Of a DNA stretch of 36,606 nucleotides, positions 6,453 to 36,606 are shown in pieces. Source of the DNA: Spirochaetaceae bacterium. Lineage in GTDB: Bacteria; Spirochaetota; Spirochaetia; Treponematales; Breznakiellaceae. The stretch covers positions 1 through 36,606 of the forward strand of contig JAISIL010000011.1 of assembly GCA_031262035.1 (NCBI GenBank). Direction: 5' to 3'. Position numbers and translations under genes: made by a program. The notes beneath the pieces are model-generated. The model had not been told where the DNA came from. It saw only the letters and a list, made by a program, of their open reading frames with translations, and ran no database searches. How positions within the stretch are numbered: the first letter of the stretch is position 1; each line of letters starts with the position of its first letter.

Positions 6453-9400
6453 ACATACATTCTACATAGGCAGGCGGTGTCGGGTAGACGCCTCGACGAA
6501 CGGCACGGAACAGTAAACTGACGCCGGCCTCGCCACGCTTAAATCTATCCCAAAAATACTGCACTTCGTTATCCATGGTGCGTGTATAATCAAACTGATT
6601 CTTACTGCGCTCCTCTTTTTCGGTGTTTGCTTCAAGGACTTCTGCACCCGAAGGAACAGGCAGGCGCAATGCAACATAAGTTCTGTCCATTGGGCTGTAT
6701 ACCTTTGCCTCTATTCTATACAGAACACCGGCGGTAAATGTATTATTAGTGATAAGTTCATTGGTATTATTGTTATAGATGCTATAGTTTACTCCTATTC
6801 CCTGTTCGGTATAAGTTTGCAATTCATAGGGCAGGCTGTTTGACAATGTAGCACGGTAAAAAAGGCCACCGACGCCGTTTTTTGTAATAGTCAGGGGAAG
6901 TGTTGTATTGCTTTGCTCGTTTTGAAAACTAAGCAAGGGTGGTAAAAACAAGTCATAAATTTGTTCTAATGAATTGGAATTAAGTCCCAGGAAACTGCCT
7001 TGTAGTAATTCGGTATCGGCAAGTGTCACTGTAGCATTTATATCAGTGTTTTCCAAATTATCTTCTGCAATGTATGCACAGATTGCCTGTAATGCCCGTA
7101 TGGAAACAGCGGTATTGTCCCAGCCCTTACCCGTTGTTTTTCTTGCAATAAGGCTATTTAAGAGGCGCCTTTCCAATGCAGAATCGGTATTACGCCGAAC
7201 CAGGAAGGCAAGGCTTGTGGCAAGTTGTTCAGTCTTCCCGCCATAATAGTAGTTTGCTCCAACATCGGCGCCCGAAAGATCTGCACCGGTAGGGCTTATT
7301 CGAATGAGTTTTTTCAAATTTGTTTCTGCGATTTCGGCACTGACGGTATTGTTTGAATTGAGGGCAGCCATACCGGCAAAAGAAAGAACAATCGGATTTT
7401 CAACAGGCAACAAAGCTTGCAAATTATCCGGTAAATATTCTTTGTTATAGATGCTTTCGATGTAGAGTGAATAGGCTTTAAGATAATTATTCTGTGTGTT
7501 ATATTCCTTGCTTATATACTCAAACATTTTTTCAATATTCAATGAAGGAGGAATAATAAAACCTTTTTCCTGTGCAGTTCGCACTGTTTCTGCTATACGA
7601 AGGGTCACATAGTAATCTGCATTGGAGGAGGAAGGCCAGTAAGGGAATCCGCCTGTGGGCAACTGCATATCAGCCCAGGAAGAAAGCGCCAAGTTAATAG
7701 TATTCGGTATATCTTCTATATCAGTCCTCATGCCAAGAATTGCACTCATATCGTTGAGTAGTAAGAGTGACATCACCGCTCCGCTTCTCTGCTCAAGACA
7801 GCCGTAGGGATAGTGAATAAGATAGTCGAAGGCATCTTGCACAAGAGAGAGACCTGCCGCATCAAGCTGAATACCCAGGCTCGCTTCATCAAGCTTTGTT
7901 ACACTTGGTAATATAACAGGTTCGGTGATAGTGTTAACATCAGTGTCCAGGAAGCCTGATATACCGCTTGTTTCTTTTAAAATATTTGCATCAACAATTA
8001 AAGGAACAATAAGCGCTTCGTTAAGGACATCGGAAGTGATTGTCCAGCGCAGTGTTTCTCTGCCTGCATGCAAGGCTGCAACATCAAAATACACGGCGGC
8101 TGTATTCCCTGCCGGCATGGTGAGCATTTTACTAAACATATTTTCTTTGGCATCCTGGGAATCGACTACACAAATATTGTCCATTGTTTCAAGCTGCACA
8201 GTAATTGTGTGTTCTTTTGTATCAAGGTTATTCAAAAGAACACCAACACTACCGGTATCCCGTTCACGCAAACGGCGGGGCAGCACGGCCTGAACGGTAA
8301 GCGGCTGCGTTACAGTAAATTCTTCTTCGGTAAGGCCAAAAGAATCGCCCTTATAGGCAAAAGCGGTAAGCCGGTATTTTGTTAAACTATCCGGCAGAGT
8401 AAAACTGGCCACTGCCCTTCCCTTTTCGTCGGTAGTAATTGCAGGGAGGAATACTGCCGTCGGATTAAAATCGCTCCGCTCGTCTATTTTACTGTCTTCT
8501 GCAGTAGCACCCGCACCACCCATCAAATTCTTTACCCTGTAGGTAACCGGGTCGACAAGCCAGGAACGGGAATCGCCACCGCCTGCCATCAAGGGAAAGT
8601 TACTTCTATCATAAAAAAAGTCAATCGGATTTGGCACATGGTAATCAATAACATCAACAACACCGCGGTCGACAGCCATCAGGGTAAGTTCAGTGTTGGC
8701 AATTGCCTCGCCGTTTTTGTTTGTAAATAGTTCGATATTTACCGTTTCGCCCGGCGCATAAGTTTCTTTATCCAGTTTTAAATCGACAGTAAAACTACGC
8801 ACATGAGGGTTTACCGCCAGTGCAATAAGACCATAGTAACCCTTGGGCTTATCCACATCGGCCTCGCCGTATTGATGCTTGGGAGGGCTGCTTCGGGTAG
8901 AGTAACTGGCAATAGACACATACACTAGAGGCACAAAGTTTCGTGCTATAGGTATTTCAATTACATTCATTGCCTGGTCAAAATAGCGGACTTCTTCTGT
9001 ATAAATTCCTTCCCGTTCTACAGTTATAAGATACCAGCCTTTTGGAAGCGGTGTTTGAAGCAACACCTGCGCCTTATCACCGGGATTGTAGAGCGGTTTG
9101 TCACTTACCAGATTGAGTTCCTCTGCCCTGCTCTGATTCCACCAGCGGCTTGCGTTTGAACCTGTGCAGTAAAATGTTCCTTCGCTTAATGCAGTGCGAC
9201 CGGCATCATCCTGCATGCTTAATCGAATAATATAAAAACCAGGCTTGCTTGGCTTAAGCTTAAAGCTATTGTTTGCATTTCCTGTATAGTTAATCTCTGT
9301 TTTATAGTCGCTGATATATTCCCTTGTGTAGCGATCATACACATAGCCGCCAACACCGGGCTGCTGCACCCGTTTCCATTCTTCGCGAAGTAATTCTATA

Positions 9401-12378
9401 CTCATCTTTTTTGGGTTTTGCGGCTTGTAAATACTGCCGTCAACATTCTGCACGGTAAAAATATGTTCCTGTTCTTCACCTGCTTTTGCAAAACCTGTCT
9501 TCCGTGAAAGGCCTATGTAAAACGATGCCGGGTGAATGAGCACCTTCGAAGAAGCCTCTATCATTTGGCCTGAAAGGTCGGTAATATTACTCTGCAAAAT
9601 ATACGAATAGGGCATACCAATAACTTCTTCATCACCTGTTCTTTGCGAAAAATCTGCCTCGCCACTGCTATTGAGTTTTCCTTCTTCTGTAGACAAATTC
9701 TTTCGGGCATCCGCATTCTCTTCAGTCCGGGGGCCATAGATATAGCCATCGGGCGCTGCCGGAGGAATAAACCAAGAGGACTCGCGATACCAGGCTGCAT
9801 TGTATGCAGCATCATTTAGAGGTCCGCCTGACATATACGAGGCCGTCAGTTTTTCAGTAATAGTATCACCTGAATACAACGGGCTCTGCGGTGTTTGAAA
9901 ATTTGCTTCGAACTTACGGCGCTCAAAGTAGGAGACCTGTATTTGTGTGCTGCCTGCTACAGTTGTTGTATTCTCTCTGCGGTAAGACAGGCGATAATTC
10001 CCCGGCGGAATAGTTTCAGGAAGACTAATTGTTCCGTTAAAGCCACCTGAATCACTTAAACTACCACTGATCGTCTGAATCTCCTGGCCCTGCCAGGAAT
10101 CTTCTTCGAGGACTATCGAATAATTGCCTTTATACACCAGATACATCCCCAGCACCAAAGAACGGTCTACACCACGAAAACTAATTGTTTCGCCGGGTTT
10201 GTAAATACCCCGGTCGCTAAAGAGGAAGACTACCGGCTTCACCTCTTCTGCTGTTTGGGGCTGCCTGAAACCAACTCCGAAAGCCCAGGCATTATGGGAA
10301 CCGGGCCGATAGACCACCCGGTCGCCTTCTTTTTCGGCAGAAACCCAGGGCTCTGTCCTGTAATCCTCGCCGGTCAAGGTTGCATCACGAAGAAGCCCGG
10401 TCTCGGTCACAATTACTGCAAGGCCGTTTTTATCGCTCATTGCCTGCCCAAATGAATTACTGTCATTTACTACCCAATCGGTTTTTGTTCTGCCTTCATC
10501 ATCAAAAAAAGGTGCAGGCCGCAAAAGGCTGACAACAGCGCCTTCAACCGGTTCGCCGGTAGAAATTCTGCTTACAAGGGCTGTGGTTTTATTAAAAGCA
10601 TAGCGAACGGTCAGAGCTAAATCACTTACCTGCAGGCGCATAGTATTACTGATACTTGCCTGCACTTCTTCTTCCTGACTGCTTGACGAACCACTATCGT
10701 CGCTTATCATTATGTATCGGGTTTGTTTCTGGGGAAAGGTAAGATTCGCATTAAAATACACAGAACCTCTACCATATTCATTAAGGTAAGGGTTCAGGTC
10801 AATTTCTTCAAAATGCGGCTTATTGTCGCTGCTTGCTTCAAGGTCAATCTTGTTTTCCTGAATGAGTGCATTGGGTGCATCAAAAGATTTAATATAATAC
10901 GATGAAGGTTCGATGATATTTGTATATTCAAAGATGGTTCTTGGCGTATAATTGGGCATGCCGGTAATTACTGCTTCCATTATATTGTTACCGGAATCGG
11001 GAAAAGAAGCACTGCCAAAAGGTTTTGCCTCTTTTGGCATGGCAAAGCTGCCCCGATAGGTTTTCCCCAGATTTCTTCCGTATACATCCTGCACATTTGC
11101 GTTTACAATCACCGTATAGGATTTACCATATTCCAATGGCAGCTTTGTCAAACGAACAGAATCATAATAGACCTGCTGATTATCCTTGCCAATACTGATG
11201 CTCTTTCCACCCTGTTCAGTGATACTAATCTGATTAGTAAAACTCTCTGTATTAAGGCGGGCGGAAAACTTGATATCGACATCCATTGAACTATTATCGT
11301 AGCTTTCTTCGCAGGCCAGCTTGTTTACCAGAAAAAGGCCCGGTGTAGAAAAACTGTATCCCGTGGCATTCGATGAAAGCCTGACAGTAACACTGGTATT
11401 AAAGTTTATAGCATCTGTAACATGAGCAATAACAGTATCTTCATCACTTTGTTCTAGTGTATAATTTAGATTGCTGTTTCTTCCCTGTGTAATCTTCAAA
11501 TTACTGTAGAGCTCGGCAGTATTTACCGGATAATTAAAATCAATGCTTATCTCTTTTGCTGCTTCCGGGGGAACATTGGTATCATTAAACCACATGCCGG
11601 TATCTTTTTTGAATGCAATACCTGCTTCAATCTTACTAATGGCAAGCGGCGCCGTATTAAAACGAAGGCTTGTATTCCCTGCAAAAGTGTTTCCGTATAA
11701 AGATTTTACAGCAGGATTTATATTAATCGTATAATTGGTTCCCGCTTTAAACGATTCACTTGCCTGAAAGACAAGAAAACTGGAACCTGACCACATAAAA
11801 GTTCCCTCAACCGGAGGTTGTATGTTTACCAGAGCAGAACTGCTTTCGCGAACATTCAATGTAGACAGGGCGGACATCGGCTGGCTAAAAATGATGTATA
11901 TTTGTGGACGGTCTACAATGTCTGCCACCGTTCCCTGCGGCCCCCAATCGCTAATCGTCACGGGGCTCCGTGTTCTGTTTTTTTCAAAGTCATCATTATC
12001 AATAGTAGTAAGGCCGGCAGCAAGAGTGTCGGACTGCAATTCATAATCAATTACATAGTCAGAAAGCGGACGCAGAGGACTATCAAGTATTTGAGGAGCA
12101 GTGCTCGTCTGAGGAGTAGTTTGAAGAGGCATCGGCAGAGCCTTTGTTTCAGGCTTTTCTTCCGGAGGATACTGGGGGCGATAATCGAGATTGAAGGCAG
12201 CAGCGACTGCCTCATCATTTGCAAGGCTTAACATGCCCATACCGGGTTTTTCCGCTTCTTTTATATAGCTCGTTTCCGGCACCGGCACAATATCAATCTG
12301 CTCCTTCGGCGCTTCTTCTTTGCAAGAGACAAAGAAAGATACAAGTAAAAGAATAATACCCTTTTTATACAAAACCAT
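6400..12378 (-). CDS. Bacterial alpha-2-macroglobulin lipoprotein
   Basis: This 1992-residue protein resembles YfhM-type bacterial alpha-2-macroglobulins, which trap attacking proteases by a covalent thioester after cleavage of a bait region. The N-terminus is a lipoprotein signal: a Lys-Lys start, a hydrophobic core and the lipobox VSC, with Cys19 as the lipidated residue. Many beta-sandwich (MG) domains follow. The thioester motif CLEQ is intact at residues 1527-1530 within YPYGCLEQRSGAV, and an alpha-helical toroid domain follows. The family role is periplasmic protection when the envelope is breached, with the partner PBP1C repairing the wall; pbpC follows with a 53-bp overlap. The gene lies 30 bp after the ABC transporter and has GGAGAAA upstream of the ATG within a 13-bp tandem duplication. 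Confidence 0.94.
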   Translation of the reverse strand: MVLYKKGIILLLVSFFVSCKEEAPKEQIDIVPVPETSYIKEAEKPGMGMLSLANDEAVAAAFNLDYRPQYPPEEKPETKALPMPLQTTPQTSTAPQILDSPLRPLSDYVIDYELQSDTLAAGLTTIDNDDFEKNRTRSPVTISDWGPQGTVADIVDRPQIYIIFSQPMSALSTLNVRESSSALVNIQPPVEGTFMWSGSSFLVFQASESFKAGTNYTININPAVKSLYGNTFAGNTSLRFNTAPLAISKIEAGIAFKKDTGMWFNDTNVPPEAAKEISIDFNYPVNTAELYSNLKITQGRNSNLNYTLEQSDEDTVIAHVTDAINFNTSVTVRLSSNATGYSFSTPGLFLVNKLACEESYDNSSMDVDIKFSARLNTESFTNQISITEQGGKSISIGKDNQQVYYDSVRLTKLPLEYGKSYTVIVNANVQDVYGRNLGKTYRGSFAMPKEAKPFGSASFPDSGNNIMEAVITGMPNYTPRTIFEYTNIIEPSSYYIKSFDAPNALIQENKIDLEASSDNKPHFEEIDLNPYLNEYGRGSVYFNANLTFPQKQTRYIMISDDSGSSSSQEEEVQASISNTMRLQVSDLALTVRYAFNKTTALVSRISTGEPVEGAVVSLLRPAPFFDDEGRTKTDWVVNDSNSFGQAMSDKNGLAVIVTETGLLRDATLTGEDYRTEPWVSAEKEGDRVVYRPGSHNAWAFGVGFRQPQTAEEVKPVVFLFSDRGIYKPGETISFRGVDRSLVLGMYLVYKGNYSIVLEEDSWQGQEIQTISGSLSDSGGFNGTISLPETIPPGNYRLSYRRENTTTVAGSTQIQVSYFERRKFEANFQTPQSPLYSGDTITEKLTASYMSGGPLNDAAYNAAWYRESSWFIPPAAPDGYIYGPRTEENADARKNLSTEEGKLNSSGEADFSQRTGDEEVIGMPYSYILQSNITDLSGQMIEASSKVLIHPASFYIGLSRKTGFAKAGEEQEHIFTVQNVDGSIYKPQNPKKMSIELLREEWKRVQQPGVGGYVYDRYTREYISDYKTEINYTGNANNSFKLKPSKPGFYIIRLSMQDDAGRTALSEGTFYCTGSNASRWWNQSRAEELNLVSDKPLYNPGDKAQVLLQTPLPKGWYLITVEREGIYTEEVRYFDQAMNVIEIPIARNFVPLVYVSIASYSTRSSPPKHQYGEADVDKPKGYYGLIALAVNPHVRSFTVDLKLDKETYAPGETVNIELFTNKNGEAIANTELTLMAVDRGVVDVIDYHVPNPIDFFYDRSNFPLMAGGGDSRSWLVDPVTYRVKNLMGGAGATAEDSKIDERSDFNPTAVFLPAITTDEKGRAVASFTLPDSLTKYRLTAFAYKGDSFGLTEEEFTVTQPLTVQAVLPRRLRERDTGSVGVLLNNLDTKEHTITVQLETMDNICVVDSQDAKENMFSKMLTMPAGNTAAVYFDVAALHAGRETLRWTITSDVLNEALIVPLIVDANILKETSGISGFLDTDVNTITEPVILPSVTKLDEASLGIQLDAAGLSLVQDAFDYLIHYPYGCLEQRSGAVMSLLLLNDMSAILGMRTDIEDIPNTINLALSSWADMQLPTGGFPYWPSSSNADYYVTLRIAETVRTAQEKGFIIPPSLNIEKMFEYISKEYNTQNNYLKAYSLYIESIYNKEYLPDNLQALLPVENPIVLSFAGMAALNSNNTVSAEIAETNLKKLIRISPTGADLSGADVGANYYYGGKTEQLATSLAFLVRRNTDSALERRLLNSLIARKTTGKGWDNTAVSIRALQAICAYIAEDNLENTDINATVTLADTELLQGSFLGLNSNSLEQIYDLFLPPLLSFQNEQSNTTLPLTITKNGVGGLFYRATLSNSLPYELQTYTEQGIGVNYSIYNNNTNELITNNTFTAGVLYRIEAKVYSPMDRTYVALRLPVPSGAEVLEANTEKEERSKNQFDYTRTMDNEVQYFWDRFKRGEAGVSLLFRAVRRGVYPTPPAYVECMYEAETFGRSNGALCIID

Positions 12379-25914: not shown

Positions 25915-27660
25915 TTATTTATTTCCCCGGATCTCTACCCTTCGTATTTTCCCGCTGATAGTCTTGGGCAGTTCTTCAACAAATTCTATTATGCGGGGAT
26001 ACTTATAAGGGGCAGTCGTAGTCTTAACATGTTCCTGAAGCTCTTTCTTTAAGGCCTCACTTGCAACATAACCCTTTACAAGAACAATCGTTGCCTTAAC
26101 AACAGCACCACGGTCAGGGTCGGGCACAGCGGTTATGGCACATTCCAGCACGGAAGGATGTTCGAGCAAACAGCTTTCCACTTCGAAAGGCCCAATCCGG
26201 TAGCCGGAACTCTTTATAACATCATCGGCGCGGCCAATAAACCAATAGTAACCGTCTTCATCACGCCAGGCCATGTCGCCTGTGTAGTAAATAGCATCAT
26301 GCCAAACCTTTTCTGTCAGTTCTGCATCGCGATAGTAGCCATCGAACATACCATCGGGTCTGCAGCCATTCTTTCCGGAGCCTTCCCCAGCCTGGGAACT
26401 TTGTGGGGCAGTATATATTACAATCTGGCCTTCTTCGCCCATGCCGCAACTACTGCCGTCATCCCGGACTAAATCCACATGATAATTCGGCGCCGGCTTT
26501 CCCATAGACCCTGGTTTAGGCTCATTCCATGGCCAATTTGCCATAACCACAGTGAGTTCCGTTTGCCCATAAGCTTCACGGAGTTCAAAACCGGTAGATG
26601 CCTTAAACTGATTGTATATTTCAGGGTTCAAAGGTTCCCCTGCTACAACAAATTGTTTAAACGAAGAAAAGTCGTATTTCGATAAATCTTCTTTTATAAA
26701 GAAACGGTAGATTGTCGGTGGTGCACAAAAGGTAGTCACCTTATGCCGGGTAATGACATCAAGCATCTCATGGGGAACAAAGCGTTCGTAGTCGTATACA
26801 AAAACAGCACTACCGCAGAGCCACTGCCCATAAATTTTTCCCCAAGCAGCCTTTGCCCAGCCGGTATCGGCTACCGTTAAGTGTAGGCCGCCATAGGGTG
26901 TGGCAGCGCCATCCAAAACCTGCTGCCAATATTTTGCCGTTACAATGTGCCCCAGCGGATACCTGAAATTATGCCGCACCATCTTTGGCATACCTGTTGT
27001 CCCCGAAGTAAAATAGAGCAGCATAATATCATTGTTGGTATTACAGGGGTTCGGTTTGTTGAAGGTCTGGCCTTCATATTTTGCCATCATTTTCTTGAAA
27101 TCGACCCAAGGCTTGTTAACCAGGGCATTGGCGGCGGGGGCGGGCGTGAACCCCGCCCCTACAAATGCGCACTGCGGCGCATTTGTTCCCAATTGCGGCA
27201 GGGAATCATCTATGTGCTGTATTACCCGTTCATCGTCCACACAGACAATTGCCTTAATGTCGGCGGCCTTGCAGCGGTAGATGACATCTTTTGCAGTAAG
27301 CAAATGGGTTGCCGGTATTGCGATTGCAGCAAGTTTGTGCAGGGCCAGAAGAAGCGGCCAGTATTCCCAGCGTCTTTTCAGAATAAGCATTACCGGGCTG
27401 CCTTTACCAATACCCATTTCGCTAAAGGCCAGGGCAGCCGCATCGGAAAGCCGTTTTAAATCAGCATAGCTGAATACTGCCTCATCGCCATGCTCGTCAC
27501 ACCAGACCAAAGCCCGTTCATTGGGCTTTTCTGCAGCCAGGCTGTCCATAACATCCCAGGCAAAGTTAAAATTGTCGGGAGTGTTTATCTTAAAATTGTT
27601 AAAAAAATCTTCATACGAACTAAATTCAGTTTGTGTTACATACTTATCAAGTAAAGCCAT
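25915..27660 (-). CDS. Acyl-CoA synthetase (AMP-forming), copy 2
   Basis: This 581-residue ANL-superfamily ligase is closest in style to acetyl/medium-chain acyl-CoA synthetases. It activates a carboxylic acid with ATP and joins it to CoA. The P-loop is [11 protein letters not shown], the A5-type motif is in EAYGQTE, the hinge region is [31 protein letters not shown] and the catalytic Lys lies in [10 protein letters not shown] near the C-terminus. Residues ~158-181 ([19 protein letters not shown]) look inserted in frame and are encoded by a double hairpin. It follows an XRE-cupin gene, separated by 128 bp of palindromic repeats. The substrate is unknown. Confidence 0.9.
27137..27186. repeat. 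In-frame double-hairpin element in acyl-CoA synthetase copy 2
   Basis: There are two perfect inverted repeats side by side: GGGGCGGG/CCCGCCCC (27137-27144 with 27152-27159) and ACAAATGCGC/GCGCATTTGT (27161-27170 with 27177-27186). In the gene frame they encode the [16 protein letters not shown] stretch. The GAGFTPA portion parallels GAGFKPA in purB, pointing to one repeat family inserted in coding sequence. Confidence 0.8.
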
Positions 27661-27788: not shown

Positions 27789-28331
27789 TCAGAATACAAA
27801 AGCAAGAAACCTCACATTATCCTTGCCTGCTGCTTTCATACCATGCATTTCAGTTGAATCATAGTAGATTGAATCCCCCGGGCCAAGTGTTACCTCGCGC
27901 CCGCCAATTGATACCAAGAGCTTGCCTTCAAGCACATAGTCAAATTCCTGACCGGGATGATTGTTCAGCGCAATCGGTTCATCTGCAGTCTTTGCACTTG
28001 TTTCTACAAGAAATGGCTCAGCCTTCTTCCCGTGAAAGTTGAACCCCAGATTCCAGTAAGTGTGCATCGGACGGCGGTTCACCATAGGAGCCTCCCCTGC
28101 CCGTGTCAGACAATACTTGGAAAGTTTTGCACTGTTTCCCGTTAAAATCTCGGAAATGTCTACTTTGAAGTGGGTAGCAATCTCAACAAGAGAACCCATT
28201 GGGAACTCTTTTTTACCCTCCTCCCATTCGGCATACTCAGCCGGATCGAACTTCAGTTCGTTCGCCAAGTCGTCGGCGGAAATATCTGCAATTTCCCGCA
28301 GCGCCTTAATTCTTTGGACTATCTCATTCAT
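27789..28331 (-). CDS. XRE-family HTH / cupin transcriptional regulator, copy 2
   Basis: This 180-residue protein joins an N-terminal helix-turn-helix of the XRE type (about residues 5-62, [19 protein letters not shown]) to a C-terminal cupin sensor domain (about 105-178, with [15 protein letters not shown] and [19 protein letters not shown]). Such proteins bind DNA and a small ligand through the cupin barrel. The ATG overlaps the stop of acyl-CoA synthetase copy 1 by 8 bp. It is similar in architecture to the regulator at 30053-30649, and each regulator precedes an acyl-CoA synthetase, suggesting control by the ligase substrate or product. The ligand is unknown. Confidence 0.9.
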
Positions 28332-29964
28332 TTTCCTTTATCCTCCTCAGGCCATCTTCCCTCATCTTATACTTCTGTATCTTCCCCGCAGCATTCATCG
28401 GAAAGCCATCAACAAAAAATACATACTTGGGAATCTTGTAGCGGCTAATCTTTCCCCGGCAGTAATCCTTTACATCTTCTTCGTTCATATTAACGCCATC
28501 TTTTAAGATAATAAACGCCCCAACCTCTTCGCCGTATTTTTCACTTGCAATACCGACAACCTGCACATCCCGGATGCCCGGCATATTATAGAGAAAATCT
28601 TCTATCTCTTTGGGCGAAATATTCTCGCCGCCGCGAATTATCATATCTTTGATACGCCCGGTAACCTGGAAACAGCCATCAGGACGCTTCACGCCGCGGT
28701 CGCCTGAGTGAAGCCAGCCGTCAGCGGTGATGCACTTCGCCGTCTCCTCGGGCATCTTGTAGTAGCCCTTCATCAGATTGTAGCCCTTGCAGCAGAATTC
28801 GCCGGGGACACCGTCGGGACATTCCTCGCCTGTTTCCGGATCGCGGATAGTTACCTCGACACCGGGAAGCTGGCGGCCAACTGTTTCTACCTTGATATCA
28901 ATCGGGTCATCAAAACGAGTCTGACACATACCGGGGGAACTTTCGGTCAGGCCATAAACGATGGTCACCTCGCTCATGTGCATTTCGTTAATCACCTGCC
29001 GCATCGTCTCAATGGGGCAAGGCGAACCTGCCATAATACCGGTGCGCAGGCTCGAAAGGTTAAACATCTTGAACATTGGATGGTTCAGCACATTGATAAA
29101 CATAGTCGGCACACCATAACAGGCCGTGCATTTTTCTTTTTGCACGGTCGCAAGAACCAGCAGCGGGTCAAACCATTCAATAATTGCAGCCGTCGCCCCA
29201 TGGGTAAGAATTGCCATCATCCCCAGCACAAGGCCGAAGCAATGGAAAAGCGGCACGGGGAGGCAGACAATATCCTCATGGGTGTAGCGCATGTTGTCCC
29301 CAAGGCCGAGACCGTTGTTCAAAATATTCCGGTGGGTCAGCATGACGCCCTTGGGAAAGCCGGTCGTCCCCGAAGTATACTGCATATTGACAGTATCGTT
29401 TGGGTCAATTTCCTTTTCGATTTTACGAAGTTCAGCATCATCAGTGTTCTGCCCGAGGAGAAGTATCTCATTAAAACTATACATGCCCCGGTGTTTCTGC
29501 TGACCGATGTAAATAAGCCGCTTGAGCTTGGGGAATTTGGGCGAAGCAAGATAACCGCGCTCAGATGTCCGGAGTTCCGGCACCAGATCGAACACCATTT
29601 GTATATAGTCGCTGTCACGCCAGCCGTCAATGACACACAAACATTCCATATCGGATTGCTTCATCAGGTATTCCAGTTCGTGGGTTTTGTAGCCGGTATT
29701 TACCGTAATGGCTATCATGCCGGCACGGGCACAGGCAAAAAGGATAGTGTTCCAATCGGGAACATTGGTTGCCCAAATGCCGACATGGGCGCCTTTTTTA
29801 AGGCCGATTGCCAAAAAGCCCTTGGCAAGGTCATCAACCCGTTTGTCAAATTCACTGTAGGTAAAACGAAGGTCGCGGTCCGCATAAATCAGGAAATCCT
29901 GATCAGGCTGCTTCAAGGCCGTTTCGTGGAGGACCTGTCCCAATGTCTTCTCTATGTAGTGCAT
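28324..29964 (-). CDS. Acyl-CoA synthetase (AMP-forming), copy 1
   Basis: This 546-residue AMP-forming acyl-CoA ligase resembles FadD-type or medium-chain fatty acyl-CoA synthetases. The P-loop is [16 protein letters not shown], the A5-type motif is VYGLTESSP, the adenylate-binding aspartate and hinge are in [23 protein letters not shown] and the catalytic lysine lies in [11 protein letters not shown]. It has a strong ribosome-binding site (AGGAGGAAG) before the ATG. It follows the first XRE-cupin gene by 88 bp and overlaps the second by 8 bp. It and the ligase at 25915-27660 belong to different branches of the superfamily, so they likely act on different acids. Confidence 0.91.
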
Positions 29965-30003
29965 TTTCTTCCTCCTATTTCATTAAAGGGCTCTATTAAA
30001 GGA

Positions 30004-30017
30004 CAAGATATATCTTG
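30004..30017. repeat. Perfect 14-bp palindrome between XRE-cupin 1 and its ligase
   Basis: CAAGATATATCTTG is its own reverse complement, flanked by GG and CC that extend the pairing after one mismatch. It lies in the 88-bp gap upstream of acyl-CoA synthetase copy 1 and is either an operator for the neighbouring regulator or another dispersed palindrome. Confidence 0.6.
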
Positions 30018-30052
30018 CCCCTGCGGCCCCTATATGCTACCTGCTACTTTTA

Positions 30053-30649
30053 CTACGCCGGTGTATAGACTACTGCCAAAATACGCACAGGCTTGCCGTC
30101 TGCCGAATGCACACAATGGGGAACAATGCAATCGTAGTAGATTGAATCGCCAACATTTAGCGTCCATGTGGAAACACCATATTCTATTGTAAGAGACCCC
30201 TGCATGACATAGATAAATTCTTCGCCCTCGTGAGGCTTCTTTGTCTGCTCAGAATCCGGTTCAATATCAACGATAAAAGGCTCCATGTGCCTGCCGCTTT
30301 TGTCCGCCGCCATGGAATGATAGTGAAGCCCTTTGTGTTCCGAAGCTGTTCCACTGCCATCCTTCCCCGGCAAACCGGTAATGAAGCGTGTCGCATCGCC
30401 CCGTTCCCCCTGCCGGGAGATAACCGGGCCGAGCTCCTCTTTATCATCAAGCATCGTTCCCAGCCGCACGCCAAGCACCCGCGAAATCTTGATGAGCGGC
30501 GCCAGGTCGGGAATCAGCCCCTCTTCTTCAATCTTCCGAATTAACTCAAGAGGAACCCCGCTACGCTCGGACAAATCTTCCCTTGAGACCGAATAAGTTT
30601 TACGAATTTCCGAGATTCTCGCTCCCGGAGTCTTAGTTGCATTTTTCAT
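30053..30649 (-). CDS. XRE-family HTH / cupin transcriptional regulator, copy 1
   Basis: This 198-residue regulator has an N-terminal XRE helix-turn-helix (about residues 10-68, ISEIRKTYSVSREDLSERSGV) and a C-terminal cupin (about 120-195, with KPHEGEEFIYVMQGSLTIEYG and LNVGDSIYYDCIVPHCVHS). The ATG lies five nucleotides after the 3' end of tRNA-Ala on the same strand, with no room for a ribosome-binding site. Maturation of the tRNA would leave a nearly leaderless message starting GTATCATG. The HTH begins about ten residues in, so a later start is unlikely. It heads the regulator-ligase-regulator-ligase operon. Confidence 0.9.
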   Translation of the reverse strand: MKNATKTPGARISEIRKTYSVSREDLSERSGVPLELIRKIEEEGLIPDLAPLIKISRVLGVRLGTMLDDKEELGPVISRQGERGDATRFITGLPGKDGSGTASEHKGLHYHSMAADKSGRHMEPFIVDIEPDSEQTKKPHEGEEFIYVMQGSLTIEYGVSTWTLNVGDSIYYDCIVPHCVHSADGKPVRILAVVYTPA

Positions 30650-30979: not shown

Positions 30980-31600
30980 ATGGATAATAAGGAACGCAAA
31001 ACTAAAAAAGACCTCATTAAGAAGGCGTTTGACGAGCATGGCGGCCTTATGCAGACCAAAGACCTGAATGCCATCAAAGTCTATTATCGTGATATACAGA
31101 AACTCATAGAAGCGGGGCTTGCCGAGAAAGTCCGCTACGGCTACTTCCAATGGGTAGACGAAGAAAACCTAAGCGAAGCCCGCCTTATCAACCAACTGTT
31201 TCCGGACGGTGTTCTTAACATGCTCACTGCTCTTTTCTACTATAGATATAGCGACTGGATACCGCTGGAATGGCATATCGCCGTGAGTAAGGATTCCGGC
31301 AAGTCCCGGTTTAATCTCGACTACCCCCATGTCCAGCCCTACTATGTGGAACCTTCCCTGCTGGAACTGGGGCTGACCACCGGGGACATAGATGGCAACC
31401 CTGTCCGTATCTACGATAAAGAGCGGACTATCTGTGATGTTCTGCGTTATCGTAAAAAGATAGACCGGGAAATCTTCAGTAAGGCCATCATCAACTTTGT
31501 TCAGGACAGGACGAAATCAATTACCCGCTTTTCAGACTATGCAAAGGCTTTGCATGTGATGACTGCCGCTCAAGACCTGGTCGGAATATGGATGGTATAA
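30980..31600 (+). CDS. abiEi: AbiEi-family antitoxin / autorepressor
   Basis: This 206-residue protein matches the AbiEi antitoxin of type IV AbiE systems. The N-terminal ~65 residues form a winged helix (KKAFDEHGGLMQTKDLNAIKV) that in the family binds operator DNA. The C-terminal domain has the family block ERTICDVLRYRKKIDREIFSKAI at about residues 150-172. It counteracts the AbiEii nucleotidyltransferase without binding it directly in characterised members. AAGGAA lies about 8 nt before the ATG and a perfect consensus promoter lies upstream. The abiEii gene follows after 60 bp. Length and order are standard. Confidence 0.92.
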   Translation: MDNKERKTKKDLIKKAFDEHGGLMQTKDLNAIKVYYRDIQKLIEAGLAEKVRYGYFQWVDEENLSEARLINQLFPDGVLNMLTALFYYRYSDWIPLEWHIAVSKDSGKSRFNLDYPHVQPYYVEPSLLELGLTTGDIDGNPVRIYDKERTICDVLRYRKKIDREIFSKAIINFVQDRTKSITRFSDYAKALHVMTAAQDLVGIWMV

Positions 31601-31628
31601 TTTGCTTTGCAATTTTTCGATTTACGTT

Positions 31629-31643
31629 GCACGCGGGGCGTGC
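31629..31643. repeat. Small stem between abiEi and abiEii
   Basis: GCACG and CGTGC (5-bp stem, 5-nt loop) lie in the 60-bp gap between antitoxin and toxin genes. It may tune toxin translation, but it is short enough to be chance. Confidence 0.35.
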
Positions 31644-31660
31644 CAAAATAAGGTTATAAT

Positions 31661-32560
31661 ATGAAGGATTTAGGCGCATCTCTACTGGCAAAACTCAAGA
31701 ACAAGTCCAACGGCACGAGCAAGGACTACCAGCGGACACTCTTGCTGTTCATGCAGGAAGAATTTTTACGGAGGCTGTCGCTGTCTCGCTACGCAGATAA
31801 CCTTATCCTCAAAGGCGGACTTTTTATTTACACGCTGTCTAATTTTCAGAGCCGGACTACTGTAGACACTGACTTCCTTGCCTGGCATCTCGACAACCAG
31901 CCGTCTCACATGGATTCTATGGTCGCCGAAATACTGTCTATCCCTACAGATTTAAGCGATGTGGTGTTTATGGAAGCAACACCGACCAAACCGATTGCCC
32001 TTGAGCGGGAGTATCATGGTGTCCGCACACAGATTATCGGACATATCAAGAAGGCGCGGATTGTCTTTGATGTGGACATCGGCGTAGGCGATGTTATTGT
32101 GCCAGAGCCGGAAAAGCTGGCAATCCAGCCCCAGCTTGAAGAATACGGAACACCAGTGGTCTATACCTACTCTCTTGAAAGCACAATTGCCGAGAAGTTT
32201 GACGCTATCCTTCAAAGATTCGAGTTTTCAAGCCGTATGAAGGACTACTTCGACATTTTCTACCTTGCCCATACCTTCGACTTTGAGGGGAACCTCTTGA
32301 TTAAGGCAGTTTCAGAGACCTTGAGGAACCGGCGCACAGAGTATGATGGCGACAGCTTTGACCGGATTATGCGGATTGCTGATAACAACGATGTTCTGGT
32401 CCGCTGGCACAGTTTCCGTAAGAAGATGAATCAGACAGGGCTGTCCCTGTCTGATGTTTTTGTTGTGATAGAGGCGTTTCTTCGGCCGGTGTTCGAGACG
32501 GTAGTAGCAGGGTCTGAGTTTTCAAGCCGTTGGTATGCAAAAGAGCGGGAGTGGATGTAG
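31661..32560 (+). CDS. abiEii: AbiEii-family nucleotidyltransferase toxin
   Basis: This 299-residue protein matches AbiEii, a DUF1814-type nucleotidyltransferase that halts growth in phage-defence toxin-antitoxin systems; characterised relatives modify tRNA 3' ends. The motifs are KGG at residues 51-53, RTTVDTDF (65-72) with the two metal-binding aspartates Asp69 and Asp71, a later D-V-D-I-G-V-G-D block, STIAEKFDAIL and SSRMKDYFDIFYLA. All catalytic positions I can recognise are present, so the toxin looks active. AAGG lies about 8 nt upstream. It ends 30 bp before the target duplication of the IS remnant, so the IS did not disrupt it. Confidence 0.92.
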   Translation: MKDLGASLLAKLKNKSNGTSKDYQRTLLLFMQEEFLRRLSLSRYADNLILKGGLFIYTLSNFQSRTTVDTDFLAWHLDNQPSHMDSMVAEILSIPTDLSDVVFMEATPTKPIALEREYHGVRTQIIGHIKKARIVFDVDIGVGDVIVPEPEKLAIQPQLEEYGTPVVYTYSLESTIAEKFDAILQRFEFSSRMKDYFDIFYLAHTFDFEGNLLIKAVSETLRNRRTEYDGDSFDRIMRIADNNDVLVRWHSFRKKMNQTGLSLSDVFVVIEAFLRPVFETVVAGSEFSSRWYAKEREWM

Positions 32561-32589: not shown

Positions 32590-32599
32590 ATTGCGGCTA
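32590..32599. repeat. Target-site duplication, left copy
   Basis: ATTGCGGCTA directly abuts the left end of the IS remnant and is identical to 33151-33160. A 10-bp duplication fits the 8-10 bp typical of ISAs1-family insertions. Confidence 0.88.
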
Positions 32600-33081
32600 C
32601 AGGGCAAAAAACATTTACTTTCCGAACAGGAGATATGCTCTGTATCTGTACATGTGAACCGCCCTTCCCCATACCAGGCGCTCACCACATGCACCGCCTT
32701 ATGCTCCCCTTCATCGGCGCTTCCTCTTATCGTTTTCCCGTCTACATTTATTACCCTGCCCCCGCTCCTTCCTATCTCTAACAGCCACTCCTGCAGCACT
32801 TTGTTTACCGCCTCCGGTTTCAGCCTCTCATACAGCCTCTCAAATGTCTTCCAGCATGGTATCCCGTTCGGCAATTCCAGAAATCCCCGGAACCATTCCT
32901 CCTTCTCCTGTGCAAATTCTATTATTTCATCCCATTCCTGCAACTTGCTTAAAATTGCAACAAATGGTATCACCAGCAAATCTATCAGATTATGCCTCAG
33001 ATTCCCCCATTGCCGTCGCGGATCCTCAATTTCCCTCAATTTTTCCATAAGCCATTGTATGTCTTCTTCTTGCGCTTCCAT
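32600..33081 (-). pseudogene. ISAs1-family transposase, N-terminal remnant
   Basis: The frame begins at ATG 33081 after a GGGAGGGGG ribosome site. About 135 residues match the N-terminal half of ISAs1/H-repeat transposases: REIEDPRRQWGNLRHNLIDLL, then FLELPNGIPCWKTFERL, and VINVDGKTIRGSAD with the first catalytic Asp, ending near HVVSAW. Beyond this the sequence turns into unrelated Ser/Cys-rich residues. The frame runs through the left inverted repeat and ends at 32431, antisense to abiEii. The remaining DDE residues are gone, so it cannot transpose by itself. Confidence 0.88.
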
Positions 33082-33150
33082 AGATTACCCCCTCCCAAGG
33101 GTTTCTACAAGTATATCAGTTTTCCTCTAAAAGAAAATGTTTTTGCCCTG
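32600..33150 (-). mobile_element. Internally deleted ISAs1-family element (551 bp)
   Basis: The ends are imperfect terminal inverted repeats: CAGGGCAAAAAACATTT (32600-32616) and, inverted, AAATGTTTTTGCCCTG (33135-33150), differing by one A. Perfect 10-bp direct repeats flank them. Full ISAs1 elements are about 1.2-1.4 kb, so some 700 bp or more are missing. Only the N-terminal part of the transposase remains, near the right end. With both ends intact it could still be moved in trans by a complete copy elsewhere, like a MITE. Confidence 0.88.
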
Positions 33151-33160
33151 ATTGCGGCTA
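33151..33160. repeat. Target-site duplication, right copy
   Basis: ATTGCGGCTA, identical to 32590-32599, immediately follows the right terminal inverted repeat. It lies 9 bp before the -35 box of the RiPP operon promoter. Confidence 0.88.
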
Positions 33161-33169
33161 CCGAGGGCC

Positions 33170-33198
33170 TTGACTATTTTTGTAATTTTCTATATACT
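33170..33198 (+). promoter_or_regulatory. Promoter of the RiPP operon
   Basis: TTGACT (33170-33175), a 17-nt spacer and TATACT (33193-33198) give a good sigma-70 match. The start would be near 33205, leaving a ~125-nt leader before the precursor gene. An AGGAG/CTCCT hairpin (33212-33216 with 33222-33226) lies at the start of that leader. Confidence 0.7.
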
Positions 33199-33330
33199 TA
33201 AAGGTAAGTAGAGGAGCTAATCTCCTGCTTGAAAAGTGTAGCTAATTCTTTGTGTTACAATGAATTAATGATGTTTTTCAGGGAGCAAATCAGGGGAGTT
33301 AGTTTCAAATCATATTTTTGGAGGATCTTT

Positions 33331-33477
33331 ATGAAGAAAGATTTTAGCCCGAAGATTGAGGTCTTTGACCCTTTCAAGGAACCCTTTTCAGGGAAGAGCA
33401 GTGTTGTGTTTGATGAACACGACCTTGACGCCTGCTGTGCCTGCACAGCTTGCTCAGCTTGCAGTGCCTGCAAGTAA
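33331..33477 (+). CDS. Cys-rich RiPP precursor peptide
   Basis: This 48-residue peptide begins at ATG 33331, with GGAGG (33320-33324) six nt upstream; a longer frame from 33229 lacks such a site and I reject it. The N-terminal ~33 residues are charged, with several Phe and Pro (MKKDFSPKIEVFDPF...), as expected of a leader. The C-terminus DACCACTACSACSACK packs six Cys (35, 36, 38, 41, 44, 47) among Ala, Ser and Thr, the last four in a strict every-third-residue spacing. It is followed directly by two radical SAM/SPASM genes and a PqqD-like chaperone, so the Cys-rich end is probably the core to be modified, for instance by thioether cross-links. I cannot match it to a named precursor family. 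Confidence 0.88.
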   Translation: MKKDFSPKIEVFDPFKEPFSGKSSVVFDEHDLDACCACTACSACSACK

Positions 33478-33483
33478 CACAGC

Positions 33484-33527
33484 GGCTGGTTTACTTAGAA
33501 GTTATTAATTTTGTAGGTAAACCAGCC
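33484..33527 (+). promoter_or_regulatory. Stem-loop between precursor and maturase genes (attenuator or processing site)
   Basis: GGCTGGTTTAC (33484-33494) and GTAAACCAGCC (33517-33527) form a perfect 11-bp stem, extendable by about three weaker pairs, with a 22-nt loop. It starts 6 nt after the precursor stop and ends shortly before the first maturase start. There is no T-run, so partial termination or mRNA cleavage and 3' protection of the precursor message are more likely than full termination. Confidence 0.75.
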
Positions 33528-33548
33528 TATTCTAGAAGAGAGATGCTT

Positions 33549-34571
33549 ATGACTCACATGAAGAGGCCAAGCGCCCCGTTTTATGTCCAGTTTGAACTTA
33601 CGGAGCAGTGTAATAATCGTTGCTATTTTTGTTATAACCCGCTGGGACATATTGGCGGGCAGGAGTTTGACCTTCCAAAAATCAAAGATATTCTCAAGCA
33701 ACTCCATGATGCTGGTGTTTTTCGTATAAATTTTAATGGAGGGGAACCTACTATACGCCCAGACTTTCGCTCTATACTCGAATATGCTACAGGACTCGGT
33801 TTTGAACTACACATGAATACTAACTCAACTTTGATAACTGATGATTTGGCACATTTTATTTCCTTGTATATGAAGAGTGTTTGTACATCCATCCTCCATT
33901 CTAACAAGGAGGAACATGACAGAATGACCGGTCGTTCCGGTGCGTATGATGATGTCATTAAAGGTATTTCCTGTTTACGCAATAATAATGTCAAGGTAGA
34001 AGTAAATGTCTGCACTTCAACAGAAAACTACCGTGACATATACAATATAGGAAAATTAATCTCTAGTCTTGATTGCTATGCCCTTTGTTCTACACGTTAT
34101 ATCCTCAACGATGCTAAAAACAAAGCGCTTTTGCTCAATAGTGCAGAAACGATGGAATTAATTGACTCTCTTCTGAAGGTAAAAAATGACTTTCCGAATA
34201 TAACTGACGTCAGTTTACCCGGACCTGTCCCCTACTGTGAAATAGATAAGTCTTATTATGAAAAACTAAGAATTCTCAATATTCCCTGCCAGTATGGATA
34301 CGGGCTGGCGCGCATCAGTCCGAGTGGGAATGTTACACCTTGTACCATCTCTGATGATGTCATGGGAAATCTTAACAATGATAGTTTTGAACATATATGG
34401 AATGCTCCAACTTGGGAAAAATATGAATGTCTCTGCCATATTCCGGTTCCATGCCGTGATTGTAATGAATTCCATGTTTGTCGCGGTGGTTGCGTTGTTT
34501 ATGACGAATCTATCAATACTCTGGGCGTTAAAATTGCTACAAAGAAATGGGGTGTGACAAGTGGACAATAA
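33549..34571 (+). CDS. Radical SAM/SPASM peptide maturase 1
   Basis: This 340-residue enzyme has the radical SAM motif CNNRCYFC (Cys21, Cys25, Cys28) for the SAM-binding 4Fe-4S cluster and FNGGEPTIRPDF as the GGE motif. The C-terminal ~95 residues form a SPASM domain with nine Cys (PYC, PCQY, TPC, ECLC, PCRDC and VCRGGC) that should hold auxiliary Fe-S clusters. SPASM enzymes typically modify ribosomal peptides. I take ATG 33549 (AGAGAG six nt upstream); ATGs at 33543 and 33558 are also possible. It follows the precursor and overlaps maturase 2 by 11 bp. The reaction, perhaps thioether or other carbon-centred cross-linking of the Cys ladder, is inferred. Confidence 0.9.
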   Translation: MTHMKRPSAPFYVQFELTEQCNNRCYFCYNPLGHIGGQEFDLPKIKDILKQLHDAGVFRINFNGGEPTIRPDFRSILEYATGLGFELHMNTNSTLITDDLAHFISLYMKSVCTSILHSNKEEHDRMTGRSGAYDDVIKGISCLRNNNVKVEVNVCTSTENYRDIYNIGKLISSLDCYALCSTRYILNDAKNKALLLNSAETMELIDSLLKVKNDFPNITDVSLPGPVPYCEIDKSYYEKLRILNIPCQYGYGLARISPSGNVTPCTISDDVMGNLNNDSFEHIWNAPTWEKYECLCHIPVPCRDCNEFHVCRGGCVVYDESINTLGVKIATKKWGVTSGQ

Positions 34572-35565
34572 AAAACTACTTGATTACAGTATTTCTATGG
34601 CTCCTCTCCGTGTTGAATTTGAACTGACGGAGGAGTGTAACTTACATTGTAGTTTTTGCTATAATAGCCAGACTCCACAGTTTTCGCATAAAGCTACTAA
34701 AATTATTGATAAACTTTGCTCGGAAAATGTACCTGAAATAGTGCTTACCGGCGGAGAGCCAATGCTGCATCCTGATTTTTCTGCCTTGTTCAAATCATGC
34801 TCTATTCAATTTGAAAAAGTTATGGTTCAAACAAATGGCACGTTTATAACTCCTGATATTATTCAAATGTTTAAGGAACATAAGGTATTTGCAGTAAATG
34901 TATCTTTCCATGGTGATAAAATACACCATGAAAAATTGACAGGAGTAAAGGGAAGTTATGAAAAAGCACTTGATGCTATTCGGCTTTCGGTGGATGAGGG
35001 ACTTAATATATCTTCAAATTTTGTTCTGACTACAGAAAATGTAGCATGTTTAGATGATACAATTTCGTTGCTTTATTCTATAGGGCTCCGTCAGATTACT
35101 CTTACTCGTTTTACGCCGACAGGAATTGGAGCAGGTAATAGCAATCTACAGCTTACCCGGGAACAGTTAATTAAGGCATTGTATACTGCAAAACAGAAAA
35201 TGGATGAATTTCCTGATCTGAATATCATTGCAGCGAATTCCATCCCTTACTGTGCATTGCCAAATGATTTAAATTTCTTTTCTTCATATTGCCATTTCGG
35301 GGCATCACGTTTTTATATTGATATTAATGGCAATGTGCTTATGTGCGGTATGTCACGTATAAAGATTGGCAGTATTCTGGAAAATAATTTTAAAGAAATT
35401 AAAAACATGTCAAAAGAATTTGCTGAACATATACTTGGCACTGATGTGCCCCGTCAATGTAAATCTTGTCCTGATTTTTCATATTGTCGGGGCGGATGCA
35501 GAGCAGCGGCTTTAGCGCTTAGCAAGAATTTTCAGGGGAGAGACCCCTATATGAAGGAGATATAG
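34561..35565 (+). CDS. Radical SAM/SPASM peptide maturase 2
   Basis: This 334-residue protein is a paralogue of maturase 1. The cluster motif is CNLHCSFC (Cys26, Cys30, Cys33) and the GGE motif lies in VLTGGEPMLHPDF. Both proteins share (E/Q)FELTE(E/Q)CN leading into the cluster. The C-terminal SPASM region keeps seven Cys (PYC, YC, MC, QCKSC, YCRGGC), two fewer than maturase 1. It starts with GTG overlapping the upstream stop by 11 bp; an internal ATG at 34597 would cut away only the first 12 residues. The tandem arrangement suggests duplication followed by division of labour on the same precursor. Reaction not determined. Confidence 0.9.
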   Translation: MDNKKLLDYSISMAPLRVEFELTEECNLHCSFCYNSQTPQFSHKATKIIDKLCSENVPEIVLTGGEPMLHPDFSALFKSCSIQFEKVMVQTNGTFITPDIIQMFKEHKVFAVNVSFHGDKIHHEKLTGVKGSYEKALDAIRLSVDEGLNISSNFVLTTENVACLDDTISLLYSIGLRQITLTRFTPTGIGAGNSNLQLTREQLIKALYTAKQKMDEFPDLNIIAANSIPYCALPNDLNFFSSYCHFGASRFYIDINGNVLMCGMSRIKIGSILENNFKEIKNMSKEFAEHILGTDVPRQCKSCPDFSYCRGGCRAAALALSKNFQGRDPYMKEI

Positions 35566-35569
35566 TTTT

Positions 35570-35848
35570 ATGGAAACAAAAAAAATTGATAGAAAGGCTA
35601 TCTTTTCTCTTACTGATGGCATCCGTATCCGTGACGAGTCATTTGGCATGCTCATTATATCCAAAAACGCGCCGGCATTATCATTAAACCCGGACAGCGC
35701 TTTTATCATTAAATTAATTGATGGCATCCGCAGCGTAAACGATATTGTTAAAATCGCCTGTGAACAATACAATGAAGAAGCGGTAAATAACAATATTGAC
35801 GACTTATTTTCAGAATTGGTAAATCTCAAACTTATTGAGGAAAAATGA
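35570..35848 (+). CDS. PqqD-like peptide chaperone (RRE domain)
   Basis: This 92-residue protein looks like a stand-alone PqqD-family RiPP recognition element. It begins with a beta-rich region (FSLTDGIRIRDESFGMLII), followed by LNPDSAFIIKLIDGIRSVNDIVK and a helical C-terminus, the usual PqqD pattern (a variable residue-G-x-L start, then a DG turn). Such proteins bind the leader peptide and present it to a radical SAM maturase. AAGGAG lies 10 nt before the ATG. It overlaps the next gene by ATGA. It fits between the maturases and the next enzyme as the leader-binding partner for one or all of them. Confidence 0.85.
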   Translation: METKKIDRKAIFSLTDGIRIRDESFGMLIISKNAPALSLNPDSAFIIKLIDGIRSVNDIVKIACEQYNEEAVNNNIDDLFSELVNLKLIEEK

Positions 35849-36606
35849 TTTATCTTATTCCGCCACTCTGTGATATAACAGTTCCTCTGCTGGGTCCTTA
35901 CCAGATGGCCGGTTTTGCCGATAGTATAGGCTATTCATTTGAAATACATGACTTAAACATTGCTTTTGCAAAGCATATTGTAAAAGAAGCGCCCCGTGAT
36001 GCTGTGCAGGAAAAAACACCCTTAAATGGCCTTGATTCTATCGAAGAGCAGGCTGTCGCTCGTTTCATCGCTCAATGTCAAAATTTCAAGTCTTATGACG
36101 ATGTGCTGAATGGTTTACGAAATTGTACCAGTCTTAAATCATATTGGCATACAATGGATTATATGCGCGCATGCTATGACGCATATTCTCTAAAATTTAA
36201 TAACATGCGCTTTAAAATTGATGGGTTTGACACAAGCTATCGGTGGAATATATGGAATGATAGTAAGCAATTCATTAGCGACGCGTTTAATTCGGAATTG
36301 CTACCGCTTATCCAAAACTGGCTTGACAAAATTAGCTTTCCGAATAAAGAAATAATCGGTATTAATATAACTTTTGACAGTCAATACTTTTTCGCCTTGC
36401 TAATTTGTGCTGTTCTGCGTAAAACGCGGCCTGATTTACGCATCGTTATCGGCGGTGGGTTCGTTAATTCCTTTATTGACTCAGCGGAATCAATAGGGCC
36501 TCTTGGCCGTTATTGCGATACTGTCTGCGCGGATGAAGGCGAAGCTTTGCTCTGGGATCTGAATGCTAATCAAAATGATTCCAATAAACTTCATTCGTTA
36601 GGACAG
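35845..36606 (+). CDS. Probable B12-binding radical SAM protein (3' partial)
   Basis: The frame starts at ATG 35845 (overlapping the PqqD-like stop) and stays open to the window end, 254 residues. The start MIYLIPPLCDITVPLLGPYQMAGFA and the later IGINITFDSQYFFALLICAVLRKTRPDLRIVIGGGF followed by DTVCADEGEALL match the N-terminal cobalamin-binding domain of B12-dependent radical SAM enzymes, including the GGG and the geG(E) turn. The radical SAM cluster motif would lie beyond the window, so that part is inferred. In RiPP clusters these enzymes commonly methylate unactivated carbons or carry out other rearrangements. A middle stretch rich in Asp, Asn and aromatics is unusual for the family. Confidence 0.78.
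   Translation, partial: MIYLIPPLCDITVPLLGPYQMAGFADSIGYSFEIHDLNIAFAKHIVKEAPRDAVQEKTPLNGLDSIEEQAVARFIAQCQNFKSYDDVLNGLRNCTSLKSYWHTMDYMRACYDAYSLKFNNMRFKIDGFDTSYRWNIWNDSKQFISDAFNSELLPLIQNWLDKISFPNKEIIGINITFDSQYFFALLICAVLRKTRPDLRIVIGGGFVNSFIDSAESIGPLGRYCDTVCADEGEALLWDLNANQNDSNKLHSLGQ

Follow-up and report, generated by a model that had tools for sequence, protein, structure and literature searches.

A radical SAM cassette at the right end of a spirochaete contig

The stretch of DNA analysed here, referred to as the window, is a whole contig of 36606 bp (JAISIL010000011.1) from a Spirochaetota genome, whose host belongs to the same family as Spirochaetia bacterium MS502-68 (G050) and to the same order as Spirochaetia bacterium isolate D159 (G073). 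At its right end lies a cassette of five genes, named A to E here, which run head to tail on one strand with gaps of 71, -11, 4 and -4 nt. As the window is the entire contig, gene E ends after 254 amino acids (aa). The features of the cassette are as follows:

33170 to 33198, + strand: promoter-like TTGACT-17-TATACT upstream of A, its position suggestive only
33320 to 33325, + strand: ribosome site GGAGGA, 5 nt before the ATG, read directly
33331 to 33477, + strand: A, precursor peptide of 48 aa with leader MKKDFSPKIEVFDPFKEPFSG... and core DACCACTACSACSACK containing six Cys
33484 to 33527, + strand: strong hairpin with a 14-bp main stem (z -5.25), inside the 71-nt gap between A and B
33549 to 34571, + strand: B, first radical SAM/SPASM enzyme, 340 aa (Pfam PF04055 7e-22, PF13186 2e-8; CNNRCYFC)
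34561 to 35565, + strand: C, second radical SAM/SPASM enzyme of 334 aa with GTG as start codon (Pfam 2e-22 and 4e-7)
35570 to 35848, + strand: D, PqqD-like stand-alone leader-binding protein, 92 aa (PF05402 2.6e-8)
35845 to 36606, + strand: E, cobalamin-type radical SAM enzyme, truncated by the contig end after its N-terminal 254 aa (48% identity to E of locus L022, see below)

The cassette is best read as a pathway for a ribosomally synthesized and post-translationally modified peptide (RiPP) that combines radical S-adenosylmethionine (radical SAM) enzymes, SPASM domains and a PqqD-type protein with a UvrA-like ATPase of the self-resistance type, the latter seen in related loci, and the family appears to be new. 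An earlier note, made from the letters of this DNA, had described a 48-residue peptide with a strong ribosome site and a six-Cys C-terminus, followed head to tail by two tandem SPASM genes, a PqqD-like carrier and a B12-type N-terminus, and this layout is borne out by the Pfam matches and the gap sizes. The promoter placed in front of it is present as a TTGACT-17-TATACT sequence, but matches of this type occur in the region at the rate expected by chance (12 found, 11.3 expected).

The cassette and its precursor are conserved in eight further loci

When 84,980 GTDB species genomes were scanned with a three-sequence profile of B, eight further copies of the cassette came up, each with a B homologue:

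L022, Lachnospiraceae metagenome-assembled genome (MAG); B 67% identical to window B
L023, Alphaproteobacteria PG1894_72; B 57% identical
L024, Desulfovibrio sp. A2, a genome record not labelled as MAG; B 45% identical
L020/L025, Spirochaetia D159 (G073); B 44% identical
L027 and L026, Clostridiales HAN107 and HAN108, respectively
L021/L028, Spirochaetia MS502-68
L029, Clostridia Lapin-020

Most copies are MAG contigs with uncertain host assignments, above all for the plasmid copy described below. The order A-B-C-D is kept in all nine copies, L022 having an additional gene inserted between A and B, and E comes next after D in all but L023, in L020 after one unrelated gene. The extra protein of L022 (691-1491, 266 aa) recalls a nucleotidyl cyclase by eye, and a 552-aa protein lies inside the plasmid-borne cassette of L020 (2496-4154); neither matched a known family or solved relative. 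One further match, L065 in the spirochaete genome G122, was rejected as a copy, being a different system with an HSAC-repeat precursor: its positions 1-2085 encode a protein of 245 aa that ends with (C/S)HSAC repeats and, after it, a radical SAM enzyme whose N-terminus is PqqD-like.

Peptide A itself has no Pfam match and no NCBIfam family match at E 1. Conservation of the precursor frame among relatives, on which the earlier note had staked its interpretation, is evident from the eight other loci, all of which carry a precursor of 47-70 aa upstream of B. All nine loci share the leader xP(R/K/M)(I/V)E(V/I/Y)Fxx(F/Y)xxPF and a C-terminal Cys ladder, and the recurrence of both upstream of B shows that the precursor is more than a chance frame. 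The cores read ACCACTACSACSACK or shorter in type 1, KCTPCQCCACR in type 2 and ETCSACSACSACSSACCACTACGSW in L023. According to a profile search of whole genomes there is one precursor per genome; a second match in L020 stems from the terminal overlap of its contig (see below), and L029 has one extra match at chance level (E 0.43). Between the window and L022, A differs at 43 nucleotides, 27 of them at third codon positions, and the 16-residue core shows no replacement although many of its codons differ; judged from this codon pattern, the core of A is under purifying selection. The shortness of the frame and its low-complexity C-terminus might be taken to suggest an ordinary operon with a chance Cys-rich reading frame, but leader and core conserved in nine loci, with synonymous changes only in the core, refute this explanation, to which we assign a negligible probability. 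In RiPP pathways, a short precursor whose leader is conserved and whose core varies adjoins the modifying enzymes, as it does here, and the PqqD-like D (2.6e-8) supplies the leader-binding element.

Hairpins of unrelated sequence occupy the equivalent position between A and B in L020 (z -7.3), L022 (-4.5) and L023 (-4.2), and none was found there in L024 (z -0.96). A hairpin after the precursor gene is the usual arrangement where precursor is needed in excess, and the one in the window probably ensures such an excess of A through mRNA processing or attenuation.

The cassette was inherited as a unit and is mobile

B and C form two separate clades, each monophyletic and with matching branching order, which indicates that the cassette was inherited as a unit across phyla; the E tree and that of the downstream gene F (see below) agree with this branching, while the short D is less well resolved. 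The kinship of the hosts differs from the cassette tree, in which the window groups with the Lachnospiraceae MAG and the alphaproteobacterium, D159 with Desulfovibrio, and MS502-68 with Clostridia. The earlier note had mentioned a spirochaete setting; the cassette is not special to spirochaetes, its closest relatives being the Lachnospiraceae and alphaproteobacterial copies. The cassette is rare. Among 393 sampled Spirochaetota it was found in one, the window's own genome; the counts are 1 of 288 genomes for the Desulfovibrio family and 1 of 397 for the Lachnospiraceae family, and two further orders gave 2 of 396 and 1 of 50. Its G+C content is lower than that of its surroundings in the window (38.5 against about 47), L028 (40 against 55), L029 (41 against 54) and L024 (59 against 67).

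The D159 contig (G073:C124) ends in a 141-bp terminal overlap, equal to the k-mer length in the contig name, which shows it to be a circular molecule of 44,450 bp. By eye, this molecule carries a ParA-like gene, a probable relaxase, an IS110-like transposase and metabolic genes beside a complete cassette, and the D159 copy is very probably on a plasmid. No cassette was detected in the viral contigs or PLSDB plasmids searched. A serine-recombinase-like gene, also recognised by eye, precedes the HAN copies.

Enzyme E is a cobalamin-type radical SAM enzyme

The part of E visible in the window is N-terminal and has a weak match to the B12-binding Pfam family. Its homologues carry a radical SAM domain over the cut-off, downstream as the earlier assignment of E to the B12-type enzymes had anticipated, and the B12-binding match is just over the cut-off in L020 only. 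All six complete E proteins (L022, L020, L024, L026, L028 and L029) contain the cluster motif CX4CX2C, the usual spacing in radical SAM enzymes being CX3CX2C. The structural model of E, of moderate confidence (mean pLDDT 61), has MgmA, AprD4, TsrM and OxsB as best solved relatives. The E homologues thus unite the two features of cobalamin-dependent radical SAM enzymes, a B12-binding fold and a radical SAM domain with the Cys motif for the [4Fe-4S] cluster, and homology and predicted fold support the assignment of E to this class.

Type 1 copies add further radical SAM enzymes and an M19 dipeptidase, the latter in three of them. In L020 (7902-11751) and L024 (16046-19814), two further B12-type radical SAM genes flank the M19 membrane-dipeptidase-like gene in identical order.

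Related loci encode a UvrA-like ATPase after E

Beyond E, seven of the eight other copies carry a gene, F, for a UvrA-like double ABC ATPase, in L022 with a methyltransferase between the two. F scores 366 bits (L020) and 760 bits (L028) against the UvrA model TIGR00630, and its fold matches are UvrA, UvrA2 and Ecm16. The UvrB-binding domain UvrA_inter is absent from all six F proteins tested, while the genome's own UvrA, serving as positive control, matched it at 1.4e-37; F of the relatives therefore shows the hallmark of class II UvrA self-resistance proteins, a UvrA fold from which the UvrB-binding domain is missing. The DNA-binding insertion PF17755 is above the cut-off in F of L026, L028 and L029, marginal in L020 and L024 and absent in L022, and type 2 F proteins keep this insertion domain as well as both ABC signatures. 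The Cys of Zn module 3 are invariant in all seven F. A PADLOC match of F to mad3 is taken as generic, since a plain ABC exporter encoded in the window matches mad3 too.

The likeness of F to Ecm16 and DrrC extends to its encoding inside a biosynthetic cluster. In Ecm16 the same domain is missing; the protein binds to DNA, responds to DNA carrying the drug with increased activity and does not need UvrABC (PMC10192343). Clusters for DNA-binding compounds are marked by uvrA-like genes (PMC10413001). Ecm16 and DrrC differ in that they guard against DNA binders made by nonribosomal peptide synthetases or polyketide pathways in actinomycetes, whereas F belongs to a radical SAM RiPP cassette in other phyla. 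Some uvrA-containing actinobacterial clusters have been binned as RiPPs (PMC10413001), so that the pairing of UvrA and RiPP as such may have appeared in bulk data. In a literature search outside subscription papers and preprints, UvrA, radical SAM, RiPP and biosynthetic gene cluster did not occur jointly in any paper.

Continuing past position 36606, as the earlier note had proposed, was unproductive: the C-terminus of E, F and the M19 gene were not found elsewhere in the window's assembly, where the housekeeping UvrA was the sole match. Contig C45 was rejected as a continuation of E, since its end-open radical SAM gene resembles RimO.

Known systems resemble the cassette and do not contain it

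No NCBIfam equivalog model, including those for GeoRSP and SynChlorMet, is reached by the cassette proteins. The earlier note had seen a kinship with GeoRSP (TIGR04303 and its companions), which likewise has a SPASM-type pair and a PqqD-like protein; this kinship is not supported, as C and B score 111.6 and 83.8 bits against a cut-off of 400 and D has no match to the GeoRSP PqqD model. SynChlorMet also combines two SPASM enzymes with a PqqD-like protein, but matches to ScmE (95.7 and 69.6 of 400 bits), ScmF and ScmD (21.3 of 100) are all below their cut-offs. With the pyrroloquinoline quinone (PQQ; PqqA/PqqD/PqqE) and mycofactocin pathways the cassette shares a SPASM enzyme, a stand-alone PqqD-type leader binder and a short precursor, but it has two SPASM enzymes, a B12 enzyme, a UvrA-like ATPase and a Cys ladder core, and scores at most 100.9 bits (B against PqqE, cut-off 381) and 110.3 bits (mycofactocin maturase, cut-off 265). 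Sactipeptides and ranthipeptides resemble it in their Cys-rich core and SPASM maturases; the cassette differs by its AC-repeat core and by a PqqD in trans, and no SCIFF or PapB-type model is above the cut-off (A matches no NCBIfam family, and the PapB model gives 55-83 of 340). This comparison with GeoRSP, SCIFF, ranthipeptide and SynChlorMet models had been called for in the earlier note, and its outcome fits an undescribed system. With precursor frame and gene order conserved and no curated family reached, the claim of an undescribed radical SAM RiPP-type cassette is supported, while the UvrA-like ATPase and the defence neighbourhood described next had escaped that note because the contig ends.

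Phage-defence genes adjoin several copies

Directly upstream of the window cassette lies an abortive-infection gene pair, separated from it by an insertion sequence (IS) derivative:

30980 to 32560, + strand: AbiEi (30980-31600) and AbiEii (31661-32560); PADLOC AbiEi 2e-70, AbiEii 4e-81; Pfam AbiEii 6e-35
32590 to 33160, no strand assigned: 551-bp internally deleted IS derivative with a transposase fragment (PF13808) on the - strand

The IS derivative, bounded by terminal inverted repeats CAGGGCAAAAA..., sits between AbiEii and the cassette promoter and is flanked by a perfect 10-bp target duplication, ATTGCGGCTA, at 32590-32599 and 33151-33160, which implies that AbiEii and the promoter were adjacent before the insertion. 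The derivative occurs once in the assembly, which makes a misjoin caused by repeats unlikely. In L024 (Desulfovibrio) a diverged RdrA/RdrB-like pair of the RADAR type is located divergently upstream (4169-9489, - strand; 1.6e-31 and 1.6e-29), and in the three Clostridia copies a gene with an FRG domain (PDC-S15) directly precedes A, at a distance of 3 nt in L026. FRG is an ART-superfamily candidate antiviral effector (PMC9503650). The neighbour in MS502-68 is a TPR-DUF2971 gene, and the contigs of L022 and L023 start too near the cassette to show the upstream side. As a PADLOC control, ten other window genes yielded one match, a generic one by an ABC exporter. These neighbourhoods amount to about three independent cases, and we treat the association as a lead rather than a statistic. 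Among the genes visible on the contigs examined, no exporter was found in eight of the nine copies, the exception being L023, and this suggests an intracellular role of the product.

Proposed mechanism and alternative explanations

We propose that a mobile RiPP cassette with the order A-B-C-D-E-(F)-(further enzymes) is represented in the window by its 5' half and that in this cassette the enzymes modify the Cys core, the product is directed at DNA and F protects the producer; we regard this reading as about evenly balanced between right and wrong. Chemistry, target and function of the product are inferred as follows. By analogy to PqqD, the trans leader-binding partner of the SPASM enzyme PqqE (PMC8326336), D would bind the conserved leader PRIEVFxPFKxPFS of A and present the C-terminal Cys ladder to B and C. 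These two enzymes would oxidatively cross-link or otherwise change the Cys of the core, most likely by forming thioethers. Thioethers are the commonest outcome of SPASM enzymes acting on Cys-rich peptides. E would then tailor the core, likely by methylation as its relatives suggest, and further radical SAM enzymes together with the M19 dipeptidase may tailor the product in some of the copies. The Cys modification and the methylation by E had both been part of the earlier note and are retained as predictions. The architecture of F suggests that the product is active at DNA or close to it within the producing cell, where F, like Ecm16 and DrrC, might bind host DNA, release the compound by ATP hydrolysis and so protect the producer. 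Three points weigh against this proposal. L023 has neither E nor F, so that some products do not require F; in F proteins of type 1 the first ABC signature is degenerate and the DNA-binding insertion is marginal or missing, and judging from these sequences DNA binding may have been lost in them; and F is absent from the window's assembly, its presence at this locus being deduced from the relatives.

The missing exporter and the defence neighbours make phage defence a live option. Here the cassette itself would be the defence system, with the modified peptide staying in the cell to block phage DNA or transcription while F protects host DNA. This accounts for the immediate neighbours AbiEi/AbiEii, RdrA/RdrB-like and FRG, for the lack of an exporter among the visible genes of eight copies and for a PADLOC control without specific match, and it has precedents in intracellular lanthipeptides from defence islands and in DNA intercalators (PMC12360287). 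Like those anti-phage lanthipeptides, the cassette places RiPP genes beside phage-defence genes and apparently yields an intracellular product, but its enzymes are radical SAM proteins rather than lanthionine synthetases, and it includes a UvrA-like gene. The neighbourhoods are, however, few, defence islands collect many accessory genes, B and C resemble the pVip models only as generic radical SAM proteins, and the upstream side of L022 and L023 lies beyond the contig start; we consider a dedicated defence function unlikely. The bolder proposition of a radical SAM RiPP as an intracellular DNA-directed anti-phage defence, with a dedicated UvrA-like ATPase freeing host DNA of the peptide and the cassette crossing at least four bacterial phyla, is improbable in our estimate. 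If it is true, radical SAM peptides would join chemical phage defence and UvrA-type self-resistance would extend to RiPPs.

Many Cys-rich radical SAM RiPPs are bacteriocins, and in L023 the place of E and F is taken by a third SPASM enzyme together with an ABC exporter that lies on the opposite strand, convergent with the cassette. A secreted bacteriocin, with F as immunity protein or energy source for export, nevertheless seems rather unlikely, given that no exporter or C39-type peptidase was seen adjoining the other copies and that F is UvrA-like rather than an exporter ATPase and lacks a membrane-spanning partner. Still somewhat less credible is a pathway to a cofactor or metallophore, comparable to PQQ or mycofactocin, with the peptide being cut to a small molecule that the M19 dipeptidase would release: the combination of SPASM enzyme and PqqD follows the logic of those pathways and the dipeptidase is present in three type 1 copies, but no linked dehydrogenase or user enzyme recurs, the sporadic, mobile distribution is unlike that of a metabolic cofactor, and a repair-type ATPase would go unexplained. 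The cassette represents a radical SAM RiPP family that is small and coherent and has apparently not been described. Its UvrA-like gene predicts DNA as target ahead of any identified product, and with defence genes as neighbours an anti-phage role can be put to the test.

Other genes in the window

Further upstream, at 27789-30649, AMP-dependent synthetase-like genes alternate, by eye, with two XRE-type regulators that seem to have cupin C-termini (27789-28331, 28324-29964 and 30053-30649; also 25915-27660).

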